From assembly GCA_949372875.1 (NCBI GenBank), contig CASIAW010000008.1, forward strand, positions 1 to 64,000: DNA of 64,000 nucleotides, read 5' to 3'. This document shows, in pieces, positions 25,725-41,051 of the stretch. The notes under the pieces were generated by a model. It was not told the origin of the DNA. It did no database searches and was given only the letters and a program-made list of their open reading frames with translations. The number at the start of each line of letters is the position of its first letter. Position 1 is the first letter of the stretch. Both the position numbers and the translations under genes were made by a program. The DNA is from Candidatus Poseidoniaceae archaeon. GTDB lineage: Archaea > Thermoplasmatota > Poseidoniia > Poseidoniales > Poseidoniaceae.

Positions 25725-25997
25725 ATGACCAATGAAACAACACTGCCAGATGTGACTGTCGGAACGGGCGAACCGTCGAGCAGTCGCGTTTTCCTGACGC
25801 TCTTCACCGTGGGTATCCTTGGTATCCTCGCTCTCTTCTCAAACGTATTCGGCTGGGATAACCTTCCTTTGCTCGGTGAACTCGTTCCTTTGATTGGAAA
25901 CCTCGGTGGTAGCGGAATCTGGTATTATTTGATTGGCATACTGGTAGGCGTAGGTGCGATTGTCGCATCTCTTCTCAGCGAGGTCATTGTAGACTAA
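25725..25997 (+). CDS. Small two-helix membrane protein
   Basis: The protein of 90 residues has a Thr/Pro-rich N-terminus, then two membrane helices (about 22-42 and 65-87). I do not recognise a family. It is 13 bases ahead of the CcoN-like gene, with the ribosome site of that gene between them, so they form a two-gene unit. By position it may be a small subunit of the same membrane complex, similar in size to CcoQ-type subunits, but no sequence evidence supports CcoQ. Confidence 0.65.
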   Translation: MTNETTLPDVTVGTGEPSSSRVFLTLFTVGILGILALFSNVFGWDNLPLLGELVPLIGNLGGSGIWYYLIGILVGVGAIVASLLSEVIVD

Positions 25998-26010: not shown

Positions 26011-27978
26011 ATGGAAACCGTATTTATCGCAGCAGCACTCTTGATTGCTACTCTGGCTCTTGTATCGAACTACATGGTTCGTGGAATAGGCGGAATGGCA
26101 AGTTCTCTTAGCCAAGTTGGAATGTTCTTGTTAAACAAGGCACCAGCCGGACTGATTGACCTTTTCAACGACAAACCCGGAAGTGGCACCAAGACTTGGA
26201 TGCGCTTTGGAATGGGATGGTTCTTCATGGCATGTCTCAGCATGTTCCTCGGTATTTGGCACCGATACGACCCAACTGCACTCAATTCTCTTTCCAGTAT
26301 CGGATGGAGTTACGATGATGGTTCAATGTTGACTGATTACACAGCCATCTTCTTTTCTACTGCTATGAATTATCTTTTGATTGGTGCAGCATTGATTGCT
26401 ATCTCCCGCTCTTCCAAAGGTCGACTTGCTAGTGAAGCCAGCGCTTCAATGGTCGCATTTCTTCTCACAGCCTCAACTATTGTAATACTCCTCCTTCCAG
26501 CCATCTTTTCTTTCATCACTCTTGAAAATGAAGCCAATCTTTTGGAGACAATTCGGAACATCTCGCTCCTTCTTGTTGCCTCGATGCTTCACATTGCGCT
26601 TTTGATCAATGTCTTCATCACTCTTGGTGAACGAGAACACGATGACATCTCTCCAACAACATGGTTCCTCGTACTTGCTCTAGTCGCTAAGATTATGTCG
26701 ATGCTCATGGTTTTCTTTGGAGAACTCTTGGATTCGACTCAGATCGTTTGGATGGCAGAACGAGTGCTCCACGGATGGGTTCCACTTGCTTTGATTTTTG
26801 CTGCTGCACACCACATCATTCCTTTCACAGCTGGAAAACCAGTTTGGTCTGAATCGATGCAAAAAACGAGTATGCTGTTCCTTTTCCTCACCGTACCGCC
26901 ATTCTTCCTCTCCCCTGCTGGCGCTGGTGATTTTTTACAGAACATCGGTGCTATACTCATGACGCTCGGTCTCCTACCACTGCTTGCTGGTTCGTTCAAC
27001 ATGGTGGCTACAGCTGCATCAAATCCTGAACGTATCGTAAAGAGTCCTGGAGCATTTGCTGCAACATTAGCAATGATGCTTTTGCCAATTTATGCAATAG
27101 GTGGTTTCTTCACCGGAATGGATACTTTTACCGGAATGGATAAACTTGGTTCGATGGCTCATACAGTCGACACAGGATACCTCTACACCGTTGGAAGTTT
27201 GATGATGCTCGCAGTTATCTTCACCTCTTATCCTTTGGCTGCACGAAAGAAACTCGCAAAGGCCTCCAACGCACAACTTGCAGTTTGGCTTACATTGATT
27301 GGTGGCGTTGCCTCTACAATTTCTGCACTCATTGGTGATTTCACCGCGTATGCAGTTGCCAACTCCGGAGTAGAAGATGTCGTTGCATCCACAGAAGGAT
27401 TCTTCTTGGTTTCTGCAGCCACATTCTATCTGGTTACGGTTTCAAGTATCCTCGCAGCACTTTCCATGATTCATACCGGCCGTCCGAACAACGCAGCGTA
27501 TTCCGATATGTCTGTGAACAGCGATATTGACTCATACACTTTGGTTGAAGGCTCGACCACGATTCGAGTTTTGCTCGGCCGAGGCGTTGGTGTTGACACA
27601 ACTCTTCACATTGGAGAGGCCGAAGAGGACGAGGGTGGTTCATCAATCATCCAAGTTTCGGCCCAACTTCACAATGATGAAATTACAGAATTCCCAGTCC
27701 CTGAAGAACTGGTCATGCTGGCACAATTCCTCAAGCAGACCAAGCAATCAATTTTTGAATTCTTTAACACAATTGACTTGGATGGTTCTGGAGAAATAGA
27801 TGGATATGAATTCCAACAAGCCTTGTCGAAGTCGAATATTGCAAATCTTCCACCATGGGAAATGGAACGACTTGTTTCAGCAGTTGACCTTGATGGTGAT
27901 GGACGCTTGAACCTCCCTGAGTTGGACATCATGCTGGCCAAGATTCGCAATGAGATTCTTGAATCTGAGGAAGAGTGA
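26011..27978 (+). CDS. Heme-copper-oxidase-fold (CcoN-like) membrane protein lacking metal ligands, with C-terminal EF-hands
   Basis: This 655-residue protein has about twelve membrane helices, then a soluble tail. By eye it follows cbb3 oxidase subunit I: V-L-H-G-W-V-P (H254) aligns with the Y-G-H-N-A-V helix, and G-K-P-V-W-S-E-S-M with the R-P-V-Y-S-Y-R-L loop. The next helix has T-V-P-P-F-F-L-S-P (F298-F299) where the oxidase has G-P-H-H-L-H, so the copper-ligand pair is replaced. Where the oxidase has G-H-V-H-x-G-A-L this protein has Y-L-Y-T-V-G-S-L after H384. The helix II heme histidine appears as D-Y-T-A-I-F (Y110). Residues 589-600 (D-L-D-G-S-G-E-I-D-G-Y-E) and 626-637 (D-L-D-G-D-G-R-L-N-L-P-E) are two EF-hand calcium loops with most ligand positions kept. 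Function unknown; a calcium-responsive respiratory-fold paralogue is an inference. Confidence 0.7.
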   Translation: METVFIAAALLIATLALVSNYMVRGIGGMASSLSQVGMFLLNKAPAGLIDLFNDKPGSGTKTWMRFGMGWFFMACLSMFLGIWHRYDPTALNSLSSIGWSYDDGSMLTDYTAIFFSTAMNYLLIGAALIAISRSSKGRLASEASASMVAFLLTASTIVILLLPAIFSFITLENEANLLETIRNISLLLVASMLHIALLINVFITLGEREHDDISPTTWFLVLALVAKIMSMLMVFFGELLDSTQIVWMAERVLHGWVPLALIFAAAHHIIPFTAGKPVWSESMQKTSMLFLFLTVPPFFLSPAGAGDFLQNIGAILMTLGLLPLLAGSFNMVATAASNPERIVKSPGAFAATLAMMLLPIYAIGGFFTGMDTFTGMDKLGSMAHTVDTGYLYTVGSLMMLAVIFTSYPLAARKKLAKASNAQLAVWLTLIGGVASTISALIGDFTAYAVANSGVEDVVASTEGFFLVSAATFYLVTVSSILAALSMIHTGRPNNAAYSDMSVNSDIDSYTLVEGSTTIRVLLGRGVGVDTTLHIGEAEEDEGGSSIIQVSAQLHNDEITEFPVPEELVMLAQFLKQTKQSIFEFFNTIDLDGSGEIDGYEFQQALSKSNIANLPPWEMERLVSAVDLDGDGRLNLPELDIMLAKIRNEILESEEE

Positions 27979-32741: not shown

Positions 32742-35700
32742 TCAAAGCAAGTCATCCAAGAATGATGTATCAATGCTCGCTTGAGGAAGTTGTGGAGATG
32801 ATTGACCCGCAAGTTCGTTCATCAGTGCATTATTTTGCGCTGGTTGCATCACTGGTTGTGAGGACTGGTATGCAGGGCGCCCGTAGATGTCTTGATTCTC
32901 GATTCGTTGTGCTGCTGCATAGATGTCATTACTTTGTTCGAGGTTCGGAACAGCTTTACCGGGCATCGGTGGTGGAGCAGGGACACTGTCAGCCCCCCAT
33001 CCATCGTCTTGAATGCCCCAGGTTGCTTCCTGTAATTCGAGGGTTTGATCTCGTCGACGCTGTCCACCTCGTGATCGAACAATGGCAACCAGCAAGAGGA
33101 CTGCGATGAACAGCAGTCCAGCAGCGAGTAGATTTGGTGTAGTGAGAAGTGAGGAGAAATCATTCTCATCAACAGTATCTTGATTCCCATCACCATTTGC
33201 GTTTTCTTTACCAAACACGTCAAGCATTACAGCATCTACTTCTTCTCTTTCAAAGAGGTCATCAAACGGCGCAACTGCGATATACCATGCAGATGAGTTG
33301 AGCAGCGGGTCGTAATTATTTGGAGTAATGAGGAAGGAGTTCGATGCTTTCACTTCAGCAACAAAATCAGCATCGGAAACCGAAGCGAAGTTATTGTTTG
33401 AGATGTATACGCGGTATCCTCGTACGCTTGCATCGCTTGAATGACTCCATTCGACCAGGATGTTTGTTTCTGAGTTCCAAGACAATACAATGTCCTCAAT
33501 CTGGTCAAGGTACCCACCGAGACCATCAACACCATCGTCAACCGATTGTGCTGAAACACTGACTAAATTAATTTCTTGAGCGTTTCCAGCAGTATCTCGA
33601 ACAACAACTGCTGCCCAGATTTCTTGTCCAGCAATCACAGGAGTATCTCCAGCCACTACATCAATGGTAAGCGGTAATTCAGGCAAACGTGACAGAACTG
33701 CGATTGGCGTAGCAGGGCCCGTACTTCCCATGCCTATGGCATCGAATGCCCAGGTTGCTGCATACACTTCATAAGTTGCAACATCGCTTTCATCACTCAG
33801 TTCAAAGTCCAAGAGAAGCGCACTACCATCATCATTCGGACGGTCATACAATTCGAGAGCTGTGAGTGGAGCAGGCGCAATGACATCTTGTAAATTGTTG
33901 ATTGGAACGACAGTTGCTTGTGGCAGGTCGGTGAGGTAAACATTACCTGCAAGGTCGTGCACAGTAACAACGACAAACAGTTCAACGTCAGGTTGAATGA
34001 TTTGAGGCACAGCATCAACGATTGAATCTCCGCCATACAATGCTGTTGAAATCGATATTTCGATTGGGTTGTAATCTTCGTCAATCCATTGCTTGTTAAT
34101 CTTCAAACAGGCACATTTGGTTTCATCATCCCCAAACGCAGCCCAGGCTACAGAAAGGTCAGAGATTGGACGGTCAGCAGCCCATACGATATAGTGTGAG
34201 AAATCATCAGCATCGGAGATAGACCAGATGACATCAATGGCAGTTCCATCATCATCTGGGTGGTCAAATGCATTCACCGTGCCGACTCTGTCAGGGATTG
34301 AACCGCTTCCTGCAGTATTGCGAAGAGGGGTAACTTGGACGAGATCAACATCACCAAGATTTGCGTTCAACCAATCATCGTAAGCAACTACTCCGACATA
34401 GTATGCTTGACCATCTTGCAATGCAACACCATCAATACTGGTCACTGTGGTTGAAGTCTCGGCGCAATCATCAATGATTTTTGCTTGACTAAATTGGTCG
34501 CCTTCAACCGAAGCAGATAGAATCGATTCGCCATCAAAACTACCTGTCGATAATTGAATGAAGACAGCATAGAATGTGCAGTCTTCGGCCGGGTTTGCAT
34601 CCCATGATACGGTAATTCGTCCACCATCATCATCTGGCGTGTCAATTGCTTGGACGTTTTCCATCTTTGGTGGAGCAGTATTGTCGTTTAATCCACCCGT
34701 TGGGACAACAGGGCCAATGACGAGTGGATTCATGATATCTTCCTGCCCGGATTCATCGATACAGGTGAGGGCAAGCCAATAAGGCTGACCAGCATCTAGA
34801 GAGAGAACAGTCGTGTTCCCCTCTGTTTTATCGACTTCTGTTTCAGGTGTTAATCCTAAGACATCAGTCATTAGATTCGTTGAGGCATAAATCATGGTGC
34901 CTGCGAGGTCTACAGACGTACATCTCGCCCATTCAATTTCGAGGTCACCATCTAATCCTCCATCATGTGGCCCGGCATTTGCCCAAAGAGGAGACAAAGG
35001 AACCTCGTTCGTTGGAGAAGCTGGACCTTTGATTGGAGAGGGTGTTCCCAGATGACCGTCGTCGTATTCGACAACCACGACGGCATAGTAGAGTTCACCA
35101 TCAACAAGTGGAACTCCATTCGCCGTCGTCACCTCGCTGGAAAGGCGGCTGTGTAATGATATTGCCTTGTCGATTGTGCGCCCAGCTAGGTCATCAGCAG
35201 TGAGGGGCAAACCGCTTTGAGTGACAAATGGGCCTTCGCTAACATAAACCAAATAACGCGCAAAGTTTTCATCGTGAACAAGACTCCAATTCGCCACTAA
35301 TGCGCCTCCACCGTCGTCTGGTCGGTCGATTACGTCGGTCATTGTTACTGGTGTTTCAGTTCGGACATAATCGTAGATGAGTCGAACATGAATGGAGCCG
35401 TTTGAAGGAGAACGTAGTGTCATTCGCATAAACTGCGTTCCATTTACAATAACGCCGTTATCAACAGCGAGTTGCATTGTTGTTTCGAAATCAGGATTGT
35501 TGTTGAGTTCAATAGTTGCATTGTACTTGAGGCTCTTTGAATGGGCCCATGTTGCAGCATTATTCACTGGGGATGTGAATGCTAATGGAACAGTTTGGAA
35601 CATGATTCCATTGGTGCCTGTAACGCCTTGCGTAGGGTCAAGTGCAACCGTTGAGTCAAGGTCAGCCAGTGTAATACTCATGCCGGGACGCGTCATGTCT

Positions 35701-38700
35701 GTGATGTCTTGAGTGACGAGGTTGAACCCGACATTTAACGGATCAGCATATCGGACAGATACGCGTTCAATTTCGGTATATTGCGGATTGTTCTCGTATC
35801 CATACAAGCCTTCACCATCGGTGGTAAGCCAAATGTAATCTGAGGAAATGGTTCCGCCGGTGAGCAGCGGCATTGAAATCATCTTGAGATTTTGGTGAGA
35901 GTTTGTTCGCGCCTCTACTATTGAAACGCCGTTACCTCCGAAGACCAGAAGGTGGTCGCCATCGCTCACCATTTTTTCGACTGGCCATCCAAAGATTTGA
36001 TACGAGGGGATTCCGTTTTCAAAGAACGAAGAAGTGCTGTTCCAGTGCGTCATTGGGCCAATATCAGTCGCAATGTGGAGGCCCCAGTAATCGCTTGCAA
36101 TGGCGTCGATGTTATTGGATGGCAATTGATCAAATTCATGTCCAGTAATTACTCCAGAACTCAAATCAATTGTTGTGACAGCAGGTCGTTCATTTCCGGC
36201 ACCATCGTGCCCGATAAACAATGTTGAAGGGAGTAATGAAGAGGAATAGCTCGTGAGTGACATGGTTGAAGTCCCCATGAGGCCAGAGGCTGAGTTGTAG
36301 AGTGTTGTTGCATTGGTCGTTAGGTCCATTTCAACCAAACCACCAGTCGTAGCCATCCACAGAGAATTGCCGTCAACGAGGACATCTTCAACGACATTTG
36401 TTGGCAACCCATCTGTTGTAGTTAGTGGATTAATCCAGTCACCGGTGACATAATCCCAACGTCCTACACCGCCATTTGTTGCGATGTAGAGGATATCGGA
36501 AGTCGCAGCGAAATTGTTGACACCATTTGACGGTAATCCGCCGAGAAGTTTGCCGTTACCGTATCCAGTTTGTATGTCGTAGAGTTGCACACCTGGTGCA
36601 GAGCCGCCACTACCCATCAGCCCGAGAACGAGGGTTGTACCATCGAGCACCATTCCATCGAGGTAACCATGCAATCCGCCACTCAGTCGTGTGACAATAC
36701 CGGTCAGTGTATCGAGTTTATACAATCCAGTAGGCGATGAAGAAATATACAGGTCAGTTCCAATCAATTCCGTATCTTGTGCCTTGCTGTTTGCAGCCAT
36801 AGTCCAGCCATTCTGCCACAATATCGAGCCGTCAGTTTGCCGTTCTCCTTGAAGCAATCCTGCCCCACTGGACTGTCCTTGGCCCTGATTTGTACCCGCA
36901 GTGGTAACCCAAAGGTGAGTCGAGTTCCCATTCATTGTCGTCACTTGACCGCTCACGAGTCCAGGAAGAGTTGCAACGGTGTTTTGTCCGAGTGAATTGA
37001 TGGTCTCGACCTTACTAAATCCAGAGGAGCCACCTGCTTGGCCAACGAGCCATTCACTTCCCAGCCACTGGAACGAAGTCACAGATGAGCCTGCGCCATT
37101 GACGCTGGCTTGAGCATTCGAGTTTCCAGAGGTCGAAATAATGGTGAATCCTCCACCGATGATATTGTTGCCCGACAACCCGATTCCATGACCGAGGACA
37201 AGTTGCCCGTTTGCATAGCCGATAGCATCCCACCAAACACGGTCGCTTGGCAGCCCATTGGTGAAACTTGTAATTGGTGTGATCCATGACCCAGAAGAAT
37301 AACTGTACTTTTTGATGTCTGCTTCGTCTTCATAGAACGCGACATAAAGAGTATCCGTTGCATCGCAGGCAACGCCAGATACTTCACTATAACCTTCGTT
37401 CCAATCAGCGCCAGTAAAGGAGCCAATCATGGTACTGTTCGTCAAATCAAGACGGGCTACTCCGCCGTTGTTCGCATAGATTCCAATGTTGAGAACTCCG
37501 CCGCACAGAGCCATGGAAAGCGGGTAACCATTTGGCGTTCCGCTTTGCCCTAAATCAAACTGATTCCACGTAGTTCCATCCCAGTGAGACACAGCTCCGC
37601 CTTGGAATTGCCCGAAGCCACTGACATCGCCACCTCCAGTGACGAGGTTTGTTCCATCAGTCCATAATTCGTAAATTCTGCTGCCAGCATTGTTTGGAAG
37701 TCCGTTTCCTTCTTCCCACATTGTAAGCCACTGGTTCGAGGTTTCGTTGTATCGTGCTACGCCGTCTTCGGTTGCGAACAGAACTTCTCCATTAAATTCG
37801 AGGATTTCTCGGATTGGGAAATCAAAATCATTAGCATCCCATGTGCCCATTGTCGTACCGTTCGGAGCGATGAGTTCAAGGTTACTTTCGCCCCATGAGA
37901 CCCACATGTTTCCTGAGGAGGATTCGTATGCAGTTACTCTGTCGACCTGTCCAATTGGTAAGATGCTGGTATCCCACGAGCCGCTTGAAATATTCCATTG
38001 TGCGATACCGCCTGAACCATCGGTATTCCACCATTGTCCAGATGAGACGCTCACCATGAGTTTGCCATCAACGATGTTCATACCGTTTACATCGCCGCCG
38101 TTTTCATTCAGTTCGGCTCCTGCATCTAAGGAACTCAAACTCGCATAGTTTGCAATATCGATACGGAATACATTGTCGCTGCTCGTGCGGTCGTTGTAAT
38201 ACATGATGTTCCCATCGACAATCATGTCGTGAGGATTACCGTTGCCAGCAAACAAATTACTCGACTTTTCAATGTCATAGACTTCTGCTCCAGTTGTCGT
38301 GTTGAGCAGTTGGAAACCGTCATCACCGCCGATCCAGATTTGACCTGGGCTGATATCGGCAACCAAGCCAGTTACCTCTTCATTCCCACCATCTAAGACA
38401 TTGTCTTCAGTCCAAAGAGTAAGCCAGGCATTGTTCGGCATATCGTAGCGAGCAATACCTATTCCGTCAAGGCCGATGTAAGCGATGTCATCAATGACTT
38501 CTACGGGTGCGTTTTGAGTTTGTTCTCCAGCTTCCCATTCTCCAATGACTTCGTAAGGAGATGCAGTGATAATTCCAACTCCAGACGTCGTTCCTCCGAA
38601 GATGTAGCCGTAACTATCTGCTTCAACAGAGTAAGTGGCCCAGTTCGGCATGCCGTCGTATACGTTGAGGCATTCGTCGATTCCCAATGTGGCAATGCTA

Positions 38701-41042
38701 TACTTGCAAACGCCGATATTGGTTCCAGCATAGAGGCTACCGCCTGAGATACTTGAAACGGCAGCGAAGTCGTAAAACTGTTGAGGGCGCGTGTCCCAAG
38801 AAGAGCCTTGGCCGAAAGTCGTCATCTGGTTTCCGTCCCATCGCCTCGCTCCTTGTTGCGTTCCAATGTAGATGTTGAAACCGTCGGATTCAAGAGCGTA
38901 GATATTGTCACTGGGAAGAGAACTTGTTGCGCTACCTTGGCCAGCCGTGTTGCCAGCAGCTGTAAGCGGAATCATCAATTCACCTGTAGAGAGGTCTTTT
39001 CGTGCTACGCCATACCCGGGAATTCCAAAGTAAAGTATGTCGCCAGAAACGGCCACGGGAACATTATCTGCCCCGTTCACTCCAGTAGAAATCCACGGAG
39101 TTAACCAGGTGCCATTTGACAAATCATATCGAAGTACACCTTCGTCATCAGTAGCCAAATGAACGATGTTGCTAAACAATGCGAGGTCTACCGCAGCATC
39201 ATCATATTCGACCGTAGAAGGGGCTGCACTGGTGGTAAGGTCAACTGCAATCATCTGACCTTCTCCAGTAATTCCAACAGCGGTAGAGCCATCAGAATCC
39301 ACTCGGATAATATCATCATCGAGCAGTCCAGTATTCGAGGAATCCCACGTCTGAAGCAATGTTCCGTTTTTGTGCATTTGATGCAATCCGCTTTCTGATG
39401 CGATGAAAACATGTGAACCATCGTTCATCAGATGATTGACCGCTGTTCCAATGTAAACAGGTTGGAGCCAGCGAGAGGCTTGGGTATCAAATCGATTCAT
39501 GTAATCATCAGCAGCAACAAAGACCACACCGTCGAGTTCTGTAGCATCTTGCATTCCGGAAGAGGTTGGACCACTTCCGATTAAGAGGGAGCCCGTCAGA
39601 AGAGGCGTCGACCCTTGGATCAATTCCGCGAATGAGCCAAATCCGTTACCGAGTAACAGGAGTTCCGATGCAGGTGCCCTGACGCCGGCGGCAGGCCAGA
39701 CAATCAAGTCACGACCGTCACCTGTTAGGCCGAAGTTTGAAATCACTTCAGAACTAGAGAATACGCCGCTGGAAGTGTCATAGATATGCAATGTATCTCC
39801 ACTTAGAATAAACAAATCGCCGCCGGAGCGAGCCAATCCATTGATGGTGTTGCTCGTGAGCCAATTCCCGTCATTCCAAGTTGAAAGCCAAAAACCAGAA
39901 CTCCAATCGTATCGTGCCAATCCATTATCAGGAGAGGCGAGTAAGAGTTGATTTCCTGAAATCATCATCTCAGTAATTTCATCGGAGTGAAGGCTGTTTG
40001 CAGTTGACCAGGTTGAAAGCGCACTTCCGGAATTCAAATCCCATCTTACGACTCCTTCATCGTCAAAAGAAATGTAGAGAATATTGTTCACTTCTATCAT
40101 GTCTAAAGCCTCGCCAGATGTGGTTTTTGTCATTGGGAAGTTCCAACTCAATCCATCCCATTGCGCAACACCGTCTTGGTTTGCAGCATACACCTTTCCG
40201 TCAGATGCTATCAAGAATTGGTCAAGAGGCGGCAGATTCGTTGAAGGAAATGGAAGCCCCGTTTGTTCGCTTGTATCGTCAAGAGAAAAGGCGTGGAAAA
40301 GGCTGTCTGCTGTAAGGACATGAAGTAACCGATTAGTTGGGTCCATGACCAGATCCTTGATGTCCGAATCAAATTCAAGAATATCGATAACAACAGGGTC
40401 GTTGGAATAATCGAGGGTGAGAATTACATCATCAAGAGCAAGGTACATTCGTCCATCATCAGGGTGTATGGCATGTGTGACGACGTTGAGTTCTAATGGA
40501 GCGAGTGCCACCATAGGGTCGACTGGTGAGAGTGCCTCAATGACCAGTTCTGTAATTTCGGCATCCGAAGGAAGCGTCCAAGTTGCACCCGAATCGCTGT
40601 TCGGACTGAGTCTGCTAGAGTACGGATTCGGGCCAGTAAAACTGTCCTGTGAACCAAGCATCCCCAGCCCTCTCCAGTCGAGTAAATTAACGCCTATATC
40701 ACTCGCAACAAGCATCGGCTCTTCAATCATTAAACCATCACTTCCATTCACACGAATTTGGAAGGAAACGTTGGACAGGTCTGCGCCCGGGGCAAATTCT
40801 AAAGTCCAAGAAGCACTTGCTTGACCGCCGGTTATGGGGTCTGCTCCAACAGCATCTAATTGCACCCAGCCAGTGTCATTACTCCCTTCTTGCGGCCACA
40901 CGGTATCGCCGAAGGATTCGTGAGCAGATACGCCCGGTAATGTGAGCAATGGGGCTGCTGATGAAAGCAGCATGAGGATGACCAAAAGAAGCGCCCTTTG
41001 GGTGTCGCGAGGCAGGGCCGCAGTGTTCGCATTGGAGTTCAT
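32742..41042 (-). CDS. Giant surface protein: beta-propeller repeats, Fn3-like domains, membrane helix, cytoplasmic tail
   Basis: The protein has 2766 residues from ATG 41042 (TTG 41051 is an alternative). A signal peptide (R-A-L-L-L-V-I-L-M-L-L-S-S-A) is followed by an Ig-like part to about 180. A very long array of blade repeats then runs to about 1800, of the form I-Y-D/V-A-T-D-x-G-V-x-R-W/Y-D, typical of two-component-regulator propeller (Reg_prop) repeats. From about 1900 to 2560 there are several Fn3-like domains, each with D-x-P-D-D-D/N-G-x-x-I/L and Y-x-V/I-Y. A membrane helix lies at about 2637-2657, then R-S-R-G-G-Q-R-R-R and a 105-residue cytoplasmic tail with W-G-I-Q-D-D-G-W-G and P-A-P-P-P-M-P. 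It should bind partners outside the cell. The pab genes follow directly. Confidence 0.85.
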   Translation of the reverse strand: MNSNANTAALPRDTQRALLLVILMLLSSAAPLLTLPGVSAHESFGDTVWPQEGSNDTGWVQLDAVGADPITGGQASASWTLEFAPGADLSNVSFQIRVNGSDGLMIEEPMLVASDIGVNLLDWRGLGMLGSQDSFTGPNPYSSRLSPNSDSGATWTLPSDAEITELVIEALSPVDPMVALAPLELNVVTHAIHPDDGRMYLALDDVILTLDYSNDPVVIDILEFDSDIKDLVMDPTNRLLHVLTADSLFHAFSLDDTSEQTGLPFPSTNLPPLDQFLIASDGKVYAANQDGVAQWDGLSWNFPMTKTTSGEALDMIEVNNILYISFDDEGVVRWDLNSGSALSTWSTANSLHSDEITEMMISGNQLLLASPDNGLARYDWSSGFWLSTWNDGNWLTSNTINGLARSGGDLFILSGDTLHIYDTSSGVFSSSEVISNFGLTGDGRDLIVWPAAGVRAPASELLLLGNGFGSFAELIQGSTPLLTGSLLIGSGPTSSGMQDATELDGVVFVAADDYMNRFDTQASRWLQPVYIGTAVNHLMNDGSHVFIASESGLHQMHKNGTLLQTWDSSNTGLLDDDIIRVDSDGSTAVGITGEGQMIAVDLTTSAAPSTVEYDDAAVDLALFSNIVHLATDDEGVLRYDLSNGTWLTPWISTGVNGADNVPVAVSGDILYFGIPGYGVARKDLSTGELMIPLTAAGNTAGQGSATSSLPSDNIYALESDGFNIYIGTQQGARRWDGNQMTTFGQGSSWDTRPQQFYDFAAVSSISGGSLYAGTNIGVCKYSIATLGIDECLNVYDGMPNWATYSVEADSYGYIFGGTTSGVGIITASPYEVIGEWEAGEQTQNAPVEVIDDIAYIGLDGIGIARYDMPNNAWLTLWTEDNVLDGGNEEVTGLVADISPGQIWIGGDDGFQLLNTTTGAEVYDIEKSSNLFAGNGNPHDMIVDGNIMYYNDRTSSDNVFRIDIANYASLSSLDAGAELNENGGDVNGMNIVDGKLMVSVSSGQWWNTDGSGGIAQWNISSGSWDTSILPIGQVDRVTAYESSSGNMWVSWGESNLELIAPNGTTMGTWDANDFDFPIREILEFNGEVLFATEDGVARYNETSNQWLTMWEEGNGLPNNAGSRIYELWTDGTNLVTGGGDVSGFGQFQGGAVSHWDGTTWNQFDLGQSGTPNGYPLSMALCGGVLNIGIYANNGGVARLDLTNSTMIGSFTGADWNEGYSEVSGVACDATDTLYVAFYEDEADIKKYSYSSGSWITPITSFTNGLPSDRVWWDAIGYANGQLVLGHGIGLSGNNIIGGGFTIISTSGNSNAQASVNGAGSSVTSFQWLGSEWLVGQAGGSSGFSKVETINSLGQNTVATLPGLVSGQVTTMNGNSTHLWVTTAGTNQGQGQSSGAGLLQGERQTDGSILWQNGWTMAANSKAQDTELIGTDLYISSSPTGLYKLDTLTGIVTRLSGGLHGYLDGMVLDGTTLVLGLMGSGGSAPGVQLYDIQTGYGNGKLLGGLPSNGVNNFAATSDILYIATNGGVGRWDYVTGDWINPLTTTDGLPTNVVEDVLVDGNSLWMATTGGLVEMDLTTNATTLYNSASGLMGTSTMSLTSYSSSLLPSTLFIGHDGAGNERPAVTTIDLSSGVITGHEFDQLPSNNIDAIASDYWGLHIATDIGPMTHWNSTSSFFENGIPSYQIFGWPVEKMVSDGDHLLVFGGNGVSIVEARTNSHQNLKMISMPLLTGGTISSDYIWLTTDGEGLYGYENNPQYTEIERVSVRYADPLNVGFNLVTQDITDMTRPGMSITLADLDSTVALDPTQGVTGTNGIMFQTVPLAFTSPVNNAATWAHSKSLKYNATIELNNNPDFETTMQLAVDNGVIVNGTQFMRMTLRSPSNGSIHVRLIYDYVRTETPVTMTDVIDRPDDGGGALVANWSLVHDENFARYLVYVSEGPFVTQSGLPLTADDLAGRTIDKAISLHSRLSSEVTTANGVPLVDGELYYAVVVVEYDDGHLGTPSPIKGPASPTNEVPLSPLWANAGPHDGGLDGDLEIEWARCTSVDLAGTMIYASTNLMTDVLGLTPETEVDKTEGNTTVLSLDAGQPYWLALTCIDESGQEDIMNPLVIGPVVPTGGLNDNTAPPKMENVQAIDTPDDDGGRITVSWDANPAEDCTFYAVFIQLSTGSFDGESILSASVEGDQFSQAKIIDDCAETSTTVTSIDGVALQDGQAYYVGVVAYDDWLNANLGDVDLVQVTPLRNTAGSGSIPDRVGTVNAFDHPDDDGTAIDVIWSISDADDFSHYIVWAADRPISDLSVAWAAFGDDETKCACLKINKQWIDEDYNPIEISISTALYGGDSIVDAVPQIIQPDVELFVVVTVHDLAGNVYLTDLPQATVVPINNLQDVIAPAPLTALELYDRPNDDGSALLLDFELSDESDVATYEVYAATWAFDAIGMGSTGPATPIAVLSRLPELPLTIDVVAGDTPVIAGQEIWAAVVVRDTAGNAQEINLVSVSAQSVDDGVDGLGGYLDQIEDIVLSWNSETNILVEWSHSSDASVRGYRVYISNNNFASVSDADFVAEVKASNSFLITPNNYDPLLNSSAWYIAVAPFDDLFEREEVDAVMLDVFGKENANGDGNQDTVDENDFSSLLTTPNLLAAGLLFIAVLLLVAIVRSRGGQRRRDQTLELQEATWGIQDDGWGADSVPAPPPMPGKAVPNLEQSNDIYAAAQRIENQDIYGRPAYQSSQPVMQPAQNNALMNELAGQSSPQLPQASIDTSFLDDLL

Positions 41043-41051
41043 TGATTCCAA

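Follow-up and report, generated by a model that had tools for sequence, protein, structure and literature searches.

Introduction

The heme-copper oxidase family is described in an excerpt of PMC8361435 by six conserved histidines. Excerpts of PMC3084760 give a Tyr-II, a Ser and a Tyr as the alternative K-channel residues of the C-type enzymes, and report that one superfamily classifier threw out sequences without six histidines; surveys of the superfamily can therefore miss such proteins by design. The described system closest to the protein studied here is CcoN/FixN, subunit I of the cbb3 oxidases (3mk7, 9g6b and 6xkw). NorB, subunit I of nitric oxide reductase, has the same fold and, unlike the present protein, keeps the histidines. 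Calmodulin-type EF-hand pairs, to which the tail of the protein is comparable, consist of two canonical 12-residue loops.

For the archaea of Marine Group II (MGII; Poseidoniales), to which the window belongs, excerpts of PMC6336850 report a low-affinity oxidase alongside complexes I and II, the absence of a canonical bc1 complex and an inferred Na+-type c ring, and call the mixed H+/Na+ respiratory chain of these organisms unclear. Calcium-binding families were noted in modules of both Poseidoniales families in an excerpt of PMC9258230, which also places haloarchaeal fam02696 beside oxidase genes in Halobacteria, a family that we set beside the present one by description only. Among the matches listed in a search of the open-access literature, itself no proof of absence, there was no description of the protein, and the excerpt of PMC9723583 holds no mention of EF-hand, calcium or oxidase.

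The window analysed is a stretch of 64,000 nucleotides from contig 8 of a 2.16-Mb genome of the family Poseidoniaceae (f1). An earlier note on this DNA had read one of its genes as a cbb3 subunit I-like protein that has lost its heme and copper ligands and gained EF-hands. The features of the locus are as follows.

25725..25997, + strand: partner gene, 90 aa, two membrane helices judged by eye, 13 bases upstream of 26011
26011..27978, + strand: ligand-free oxidase-fold protein (pseudo-oxidase), 655 aa, ATG start
26182..27480, + strand: 12-helix heme-copper-oxidase (CcoN-like) core, residues 58-490, from the AlphaFold model, Foldseek and hhalign
26902..26907, + strand: F298-F299, aligned with the CuB histidine pair of CcoN (hhalign, H316 to F298 and H317 to F299)
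27532..27612, + strand: short segment past the last helix, conserved in proteins both with and without EF-hands, residues 508-534 (alignment)
27694..27954, + strand: EF-hand pair, residues 562-648, loops 589-600 and 626-637 (Pfam), predicted to be cytoplasmic

Relatives were drawn from f1 and from the sister family of the order Poseidoniales (f2), presumably the Thalassarchaeaceae. The genus of the window is denoted g1, another genus g2, and the group of the f2 genome G030 g18.

Fold of the 655-residue protein

As a single sequence, the 655-residue protein gave only EF-hand matches in Pfam, with none in the membrane part, and the best 60 of 333 PDB matches up to E 1 were calmodulin or calmodulin-containing entries. 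A profile was built from the membrane part of 44 relatives of both families, among which 12 columns were invariant, a pattern far above chance. Searched against the PDB up to E 10, this profile found three sequences, all of them cbb3 subunit I: 3mk7 (E 3.4e-9), 9g6b (4.9e-9) and 6xkw (2e-6). Comparison of 69 relatives by hhalign with a CcoN profile, made from FixN and nine relatives (annotated CcoN, one cbb3-type subunit and unannotated distant sequences, two of the target sequences being read as short pieces of 405 and 448 aa), gave a probability of 98.9 and E 1.8e-17 over 410 columns. As controls, the same 69-relative profile was run against single sequences and gave E 0.48 for NuoM, 0.29 for NuoL and 0.18 for AtpI.

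An AlphaFold2 model of residues 1-545, for which an alignment of 44 f1 sequences was supplied, reached a pLDDT of 80.8 and a pTM of 0.83. The seven top Foldseek matches were CcoN chains (E 9e-10 to 1.6e-8, TMt 0.73-0.77), led by 8smr, 9g6b and 3mk7 (TMt 0.75-0.76). These were followed by ba3, NOR and aa3 enzymes, including a weaker match to NorB (4xyd, E 1.2e-5), and the best 50 of 192 matches all belonged to the heme-copper superfamily by their titles. The 12-helix subunit I fold was recovered by profile, model, Foldseek and hhalign alike, and is that of heme-copper-oxidase subunit I of the cbb3 (CcoN) type. The earlier note had assigned this fold class and proposed a profile search and a structure prediction as its check; both placed CcoN first, and oxidase-type matches, rather than the unrelated transporter that the note had named as contrary evidence, stood on top. 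Past the last helix, R519, G525, D529 and T530 of the segment 508-534 hardly varied among 44 sequences drawn from the two families.

An unrelated transporter that resembles an oxidase by chance would fit the lack of a Pfam match for the membrane part of the single sequence, and the fact that the PF00115 (COX1) model matched only six of the 44 relatives, the window protein not among them. This explanation is hardly credible, since CcoN is the common outcome of three methods, the best COX1 match has E 4.2e-10, the NCBIfam cbb3 subunit I/II model matches two of the 44 (best E 0.002) and the control comparisons fail. No match to a known ion channel or transporter family emerged: outside the oxidases the best E values were 0.028 (Pfam) and 0.0041 (NCBIfam), from single members each, and by title no such entry occurred among the PDB matches of the 44-relative profile or the best 50 of 192 Foldseek matches.

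Loss of the heme and copper ligands

The ligand columns of CcoN were mapped through hhalign, and exact histidines were counted in the 69 relatives (49 f1, 20 f2). The column of the low-spin heme ligand in TM II corresponds to Y110 and holds His in 0/69, in agreement with the claim that helix II has no His. The CuB pair of TM VII falls exactly on F298 and F299, the two residues that had been proposed to replace it, with His in 0/69 at both columns. H254 is present, but lies three residues from the TM VI CuB column, which is R251 in the window protein and His in 13/69. One detail of the earlier reading differs: the stretch Y-L-Y-T-V-G-S-L, set against G-H-V-H-x-G-A-L, was placed four residues off, the second TM-X His column being T388 (His in 5/69). 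Starting from the shared P408 and counting backwards by eye, the HMMER alignment leads to T388 as well. In hhalign, gaps stand opposite the cross-link Tyr and the first of the two TM-X histidines; HMMER, which has no gap there, puts the TM-X pair on a non-His consensus. Within three columns on either side of the TM II, TM VI, two TM VII and second TM-X positions, His was found in 6, 19, 1, 2 and 5 of the 69 relatives, respectively. The start Met aside, no His, Met or Cys column of the membrane part was at least 80% conserved among the 69.

No alignable ligand column carries a conserved His, and the heme and copper ligands are lost, as had been claimed; conserved histidines at these positions, which the earlier note had named as evidence against its reading, did not arise in the hhalign mapping. 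With counts of 0, 13, 0, 0 and 5 of 69 and the first TM-X ligand unaligned, the 655-residue protein is by the six-histidine definition not a member of the superfamily, though it looks like a descendant. We regard it as nearly certain that it descends from a C-type (cbb3/CcoN-like) subunit I, with the 12-helix fold kept and the heme and copper ligands lost. Without these ligands it cannot reduce oxygen by the known mechanism, and it probably contains no heme.

Retention of heme or another cofactor through non-canonical residues would make use of H84 and H268, which are common in f1 (44/49 and 40/49), or of the scattered histidines in the TM-VI CuB and second TM-X columns. By the helix limits of the model, however, H84 and H268 are close to opposite sides of the membrane; they are outside the ligand columns and are not kept in f2 (0/20 and 4/20), and this alternative is very unlikely. 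Residues common in f2 only were a His at column 86 and a Met at column 121.

The likeness to CcoN comprises the fold, the register and shared Pro, Asn, Thr and Ser positions: P323, N330, T334, S280 and P408 agree with CcoN in every one of the 69 relatives, and P271 and P277 are mostly kept. A role of the invariant TM VIII Asn and Thr in cbb3 has reportedly been published; a literature search found no paper with N293, T297 or S244. Apart from the six histidines, the pseudo-oxidase differs from CcoN in the C-type K-channel Ser, the column of which (by our own mapping) holds I, L, V or M in 69/69, and in the unaligned cross-link Tyr. The K-channel Tyr-II also falls in a gap, and the C-type set of K-channel residues was not found. 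Two neighbouring TM-VI columns held Tyr in 42/49 f1 and 0/20 f2 sequences, and in 5/49 f1 and 15/20 f2 sequences. A retained K-channel was considered as proof of proton conduction and was rejected because of the replaced Ser.

Gene pair and distribution

The linkage to a 90-residue two-helix gene, already pointed out in the earlier note, was found throughout: the partner lay directly upstream on the same strand in 69/69 loci, with a gap of -79 to 200 bases. Of 80 named loci, 79 had it upstream, and in the remaining one only 60 bases precede the gene; it was present in 113/118 order genomes. The order radical SAM, partner, pseudo-oxidase occurred in all 43 sampled loci, from both families, and a GTPase (Pfam YGR210-like) came next in 42 of them, the contig ending there in the other (L057). 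The gene pair is conserved and, as it has the same gene order in both families, was most simply inherited from the ancestor of the order.

The membrane profile matched 80 of 292 genomes of the phylum, all in Poseidoniales (80/81 of the order, 0/211 of the others). In order of kinship, the misses were G020, the only one within the order, then six genomes of the same class and then the rest, 192 of them beyond the misses listed. A search with the whole protein matched 144 of 145 order genomes, at least one of them (G020) by the EF-hand alone.

The 90-residue partner had no confident relative in Pfam or the PDB. A decapitated CcoP was considered and rejected for now, FixP_N matching three of 30 partner members with a best E of 0.0011, below the Pfam cut-off; the member with that best value was matched better by DUF3185 (0.00056, again below the cut-off). 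Matches of the partner profile to CcoP, CcoO and CcoQ by hhalign (12.1, 9.2 and 14.6) were no better than those to 12 decoys and were also rejected; the top decoy score, 20.9, came from a stretch of the oxidase-like protein itself. The pseudo-oxidase differs from CcoN in having this partner and an EF-hand tail, with neither CcoO nor CcoP among the neighbours identified. These neighbours (radical SAM, partner, GTPase and others) included no respiratory or oxidase gene. Elsewhere in the window, 32742-41051 on the - strand holds an ORF of 2769 aa with, by eye, a signal-like start and many repeated stretches.

EF-hand tail and topology

Pfam identified EF-hand_1 (E 4e-9) and EF-hand_7 (E 1.1e-8) in the window protein, both above cut-off, with loops at exactly the positions that had been noticed, and the paired 12-residue loops of EF-hand proteins are present. 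When a canonical loop was defined by D, N or S at positions 1, 3 and 5 and Glu or Asp at 12, both loops were canonical in 50/50 aligned f1 copies from 49 loci (L057 has two pairs), and two loops were found in 80/80 named loci. In the divergent copies L056 and L068 the Pfam EF-hand scores were below or near the cut-off. No EF-hands were found in f2 (0/20). Conservation among relatives, which the earlier note had put forward as a check, thus held in f1 but did not extend to f2. The core function must accordingly work without EF-hands and needs no Ca2+, calcium sensing being an add-on.

Over 69 sequences, 530 Lys and Arg residues were counted in even loops and 66 in odd loops, and the same orientation was favoured in 69/69; helix limits were taken from the model, with helix VII extended by hand to 302. 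On this bias the C-terminus and the EF-hands are predicted to be cytoplasmic. The EF-hand pair is predicted to bind Ca2+.

Two pseudo-oxidases, L057:1-2335 (- strand) and L161:6001-8304, carry a duplicated EF-hand pair. A SAP-like C-terminal domain, odd for a membrane protein, was found above the Pfam cut-off in L056, L059, L064 and L068, and SAP-like ends scored below it in L020 and L036 of f2.

Copies of the EF domain on ATP synthase and complex I

The EF domain was searched in 69 order genomes. After the pseudo-oxidases, the next best copies sat in two energy-converting membrane proteins.

L075:2342-4687, - strand (own genome, contig 4): ATP synthase subunit I/a (AtpI) with EF-hands, g1; also L237-L239 and L249-L259
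L231:2982-5552, - strand, L232-L235 and L261-L268, with L275:144-2774: complex I NuoL with EF-hands, g2 plus G030

In g1 the copy lay in AtpI (frame 575-847 aa) in 13/13 genomes, and 15 g1 sequences from 15 genomes were collected; in G018 the V_ATPase_I match is in the same frame. Pfam, run on two of the g1 proteins, found V_ATPase_I together with EF-hands in both. The EF pair stands between the cytoplasmic and membrane parts of the subunit. In the genome of the window AtpI heads a gene run of c, E, C, F, A, B and D, in which I, C and E were named by Pfam and the others by eye. We know of no such EF-hand domain in other A-type ATP synthases.

In g2 the copy lay in NuoL (frame 847-872 aa) in 8/8 genomes, giving 13 sequences, and Pfam, run on three of these proteins, found Proton_antipo_M and _N with EF-hands in them. 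The EF-hand pair of g2 is placed in a His-rich loop. A divergent pair occurred at the same NuoL site in G030 of g18 (Pfam E 1.9e-5 to 3.9e-5, below the cut-off). The NuoL of the window's own genome (L279:359-2629, - strand) has no EF-hands; at the same site it carries a very His- and Asp-rich loop that is perhaps metal-binding.

The AtpI and NuoL domains were 45-70% identical to the EF domain of the window protein, and the Ca2+ loops were canonical in 15/15 AtpI and 13/13 NuoL copies. A selection of 24 genomes yielded a NuoL in 23 and an AtpI in 22. The NuoL match broke at the EF site in 7/7 g1 genomes and the AtpI match broke there in 4/4 g2 genomes, so that the two placements exclude each other in those genomes. 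Two g1 genomes, G083 and G087, had the EF domain in neither protein. The sharing of one EF domain by pseudo-oxidase, AtpI and NuoL is new here. Unlike calmodulin, the pair is fused to a membrane protein, and the nearest copies that the searches gave belong to AtpI and NuoL within the order.

For a tree of the domain, 78 copies were cut out, one (a duplicate or short row) being left off, and EF matches ending before query residue 95 (for example L198) were not included. In this tree (77 domains, 90 columns; arbitrary root, weak support) the NuoL and AtpI copies fell among those of the pseudo-oxidases, NuoL forming one group (54/11) and AtpI needing three changes; as to the direction of transfer, it is no more than suggestive. 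The omitted L198:3577-5481, on contig 1 of the window's genome, encodes a 634-aa protein that is zinc-ribbon-like (below the cut-off) and has two pairs of EF-hands. Other genomes also hold such more distant EF-hand matches, and the module is therefore not exclusive to energy proteins.

Function of the pseudo-oxidase

A calcium-sensing regulator, an ion channel or an assembly partner had been suggested in the earlier note as possible roles. The reading we favour, at a probability of about 0.4, is a cofactor-free pseudo-oxidase that serves as an accessory of the respiratory membrane and answers to cytoplasmic Ca2+. An oxidase subunit I ancestor would have kept its fold and lost its ligands, and with them oxygen reduction. 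The resulting protein, encoded beside its fixed two-helix partner, may dock to or tune an ion-translocating complex. In Poseidoniaceae the cytoplasmic EF pair would bind Ca2+ and alter contacts when Ca2+ rises; some genera carry close copies of the same domain on ATP synthase subunit a or on complex I NuoL. The partner complex and the regulatory action are surmised from the EF copies: as these are carried by two ion-translocating machines in the same membrane, we infer that the pseudo-oxidase belongs to that setting. The functional part, a non-catalytic accessory or regulatory subunit, is itself tentative and falls somewhat short of an even chance; it gives the best fit in view of the lost C-type K-channel Ser. 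Against it stand the lack of EF-hands in f2, the more distant copies of the module in other kinds of protein, the lack of a respiratory gene among the neighbours identified, the genomes G083 and G087, and the SAP-like tails of some relatives, which hint at another context.

An ion channel, antiporter or carrier, in which the emptied fold conducts H+ or Na+ and the EF pair acts as a gate, is unlikely on balance. Such a protein might form a bridge between the proton gradient and an ATP synthase of the sodium type. The other two close EF carriers are parts of ion-translocating machines, and N330 and T334, which are invariant, fall within a helix of the model. Moreover, the c subunit of the window's genome reads LPESIVI, a motif taken as Na+-type for MGIIa in an excerpt of PMC6336850, and Mrp Na+/H+ antiporters are apparently absent in Poseidoniales according to an excerpt of PMC9258230. 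However, the K-channel Ser is replaced by I, L, V or M throughout and the cross-link Tyr falls in a gap, while the nearly invariant K43, D50 and E142 are at or near the ends of model helices rather than in mid-membrane, as are the D/E at 87 and E/D at 455 present in most relatives; nor is channel function something that can be read from sequence. A broader picture, in which a redox-dead, ion-conducting former oxidase and its two-helix partner couple H+ and Na+ gradients, and the energy conversion of one family is Ca2+-responsive through the EF module shared by the pseudo-oxidase and, by genus, ATP synthase or complex I, is improbable.

A third possibility is that the protein serves the true cytochrome oxidase, or some other complex, as an assembly factor or scaffold, with Ca2+ in a structural role. 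A subunit I relative without ligands could keep assembly partners in place, and COX1 was also found above the Pfam cut-off in 57/60 order genomes. The COX1 of the window's genome (L001; 775 aa, with an N-terminal extension) belongs to the same superfamily by Pfam and to the same cell, and differs in keeping HPEVY, HH and HFHY. The pseudo-oxidase resembles the C type and not this COX1, which its 69-relative profile hardly detects (E 0.09) although the CcoN profile finds it at 8.4e-9; no oxidase gene was found among the neighbours identified, and a scaffold appears rather less probable than a channel. As compared with both, the accessory or regulatory reading remains preferred. A fold of oxygen reduction kept without cofactors across an abundant marine order would show that the fold has uses beyond redox chemistry. 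Through the shared EF-hand domain, the idea that calcium controls energy conversion in archaea becomes open to test.

A second, unusual oxidase was observed in G019 (L197:394-2070 and 2087-2632, - strand), where a PF00115 protein of 558 aa (E 5e-38) adjoins a gene that, by eye, is like that of a CuA subunit II.
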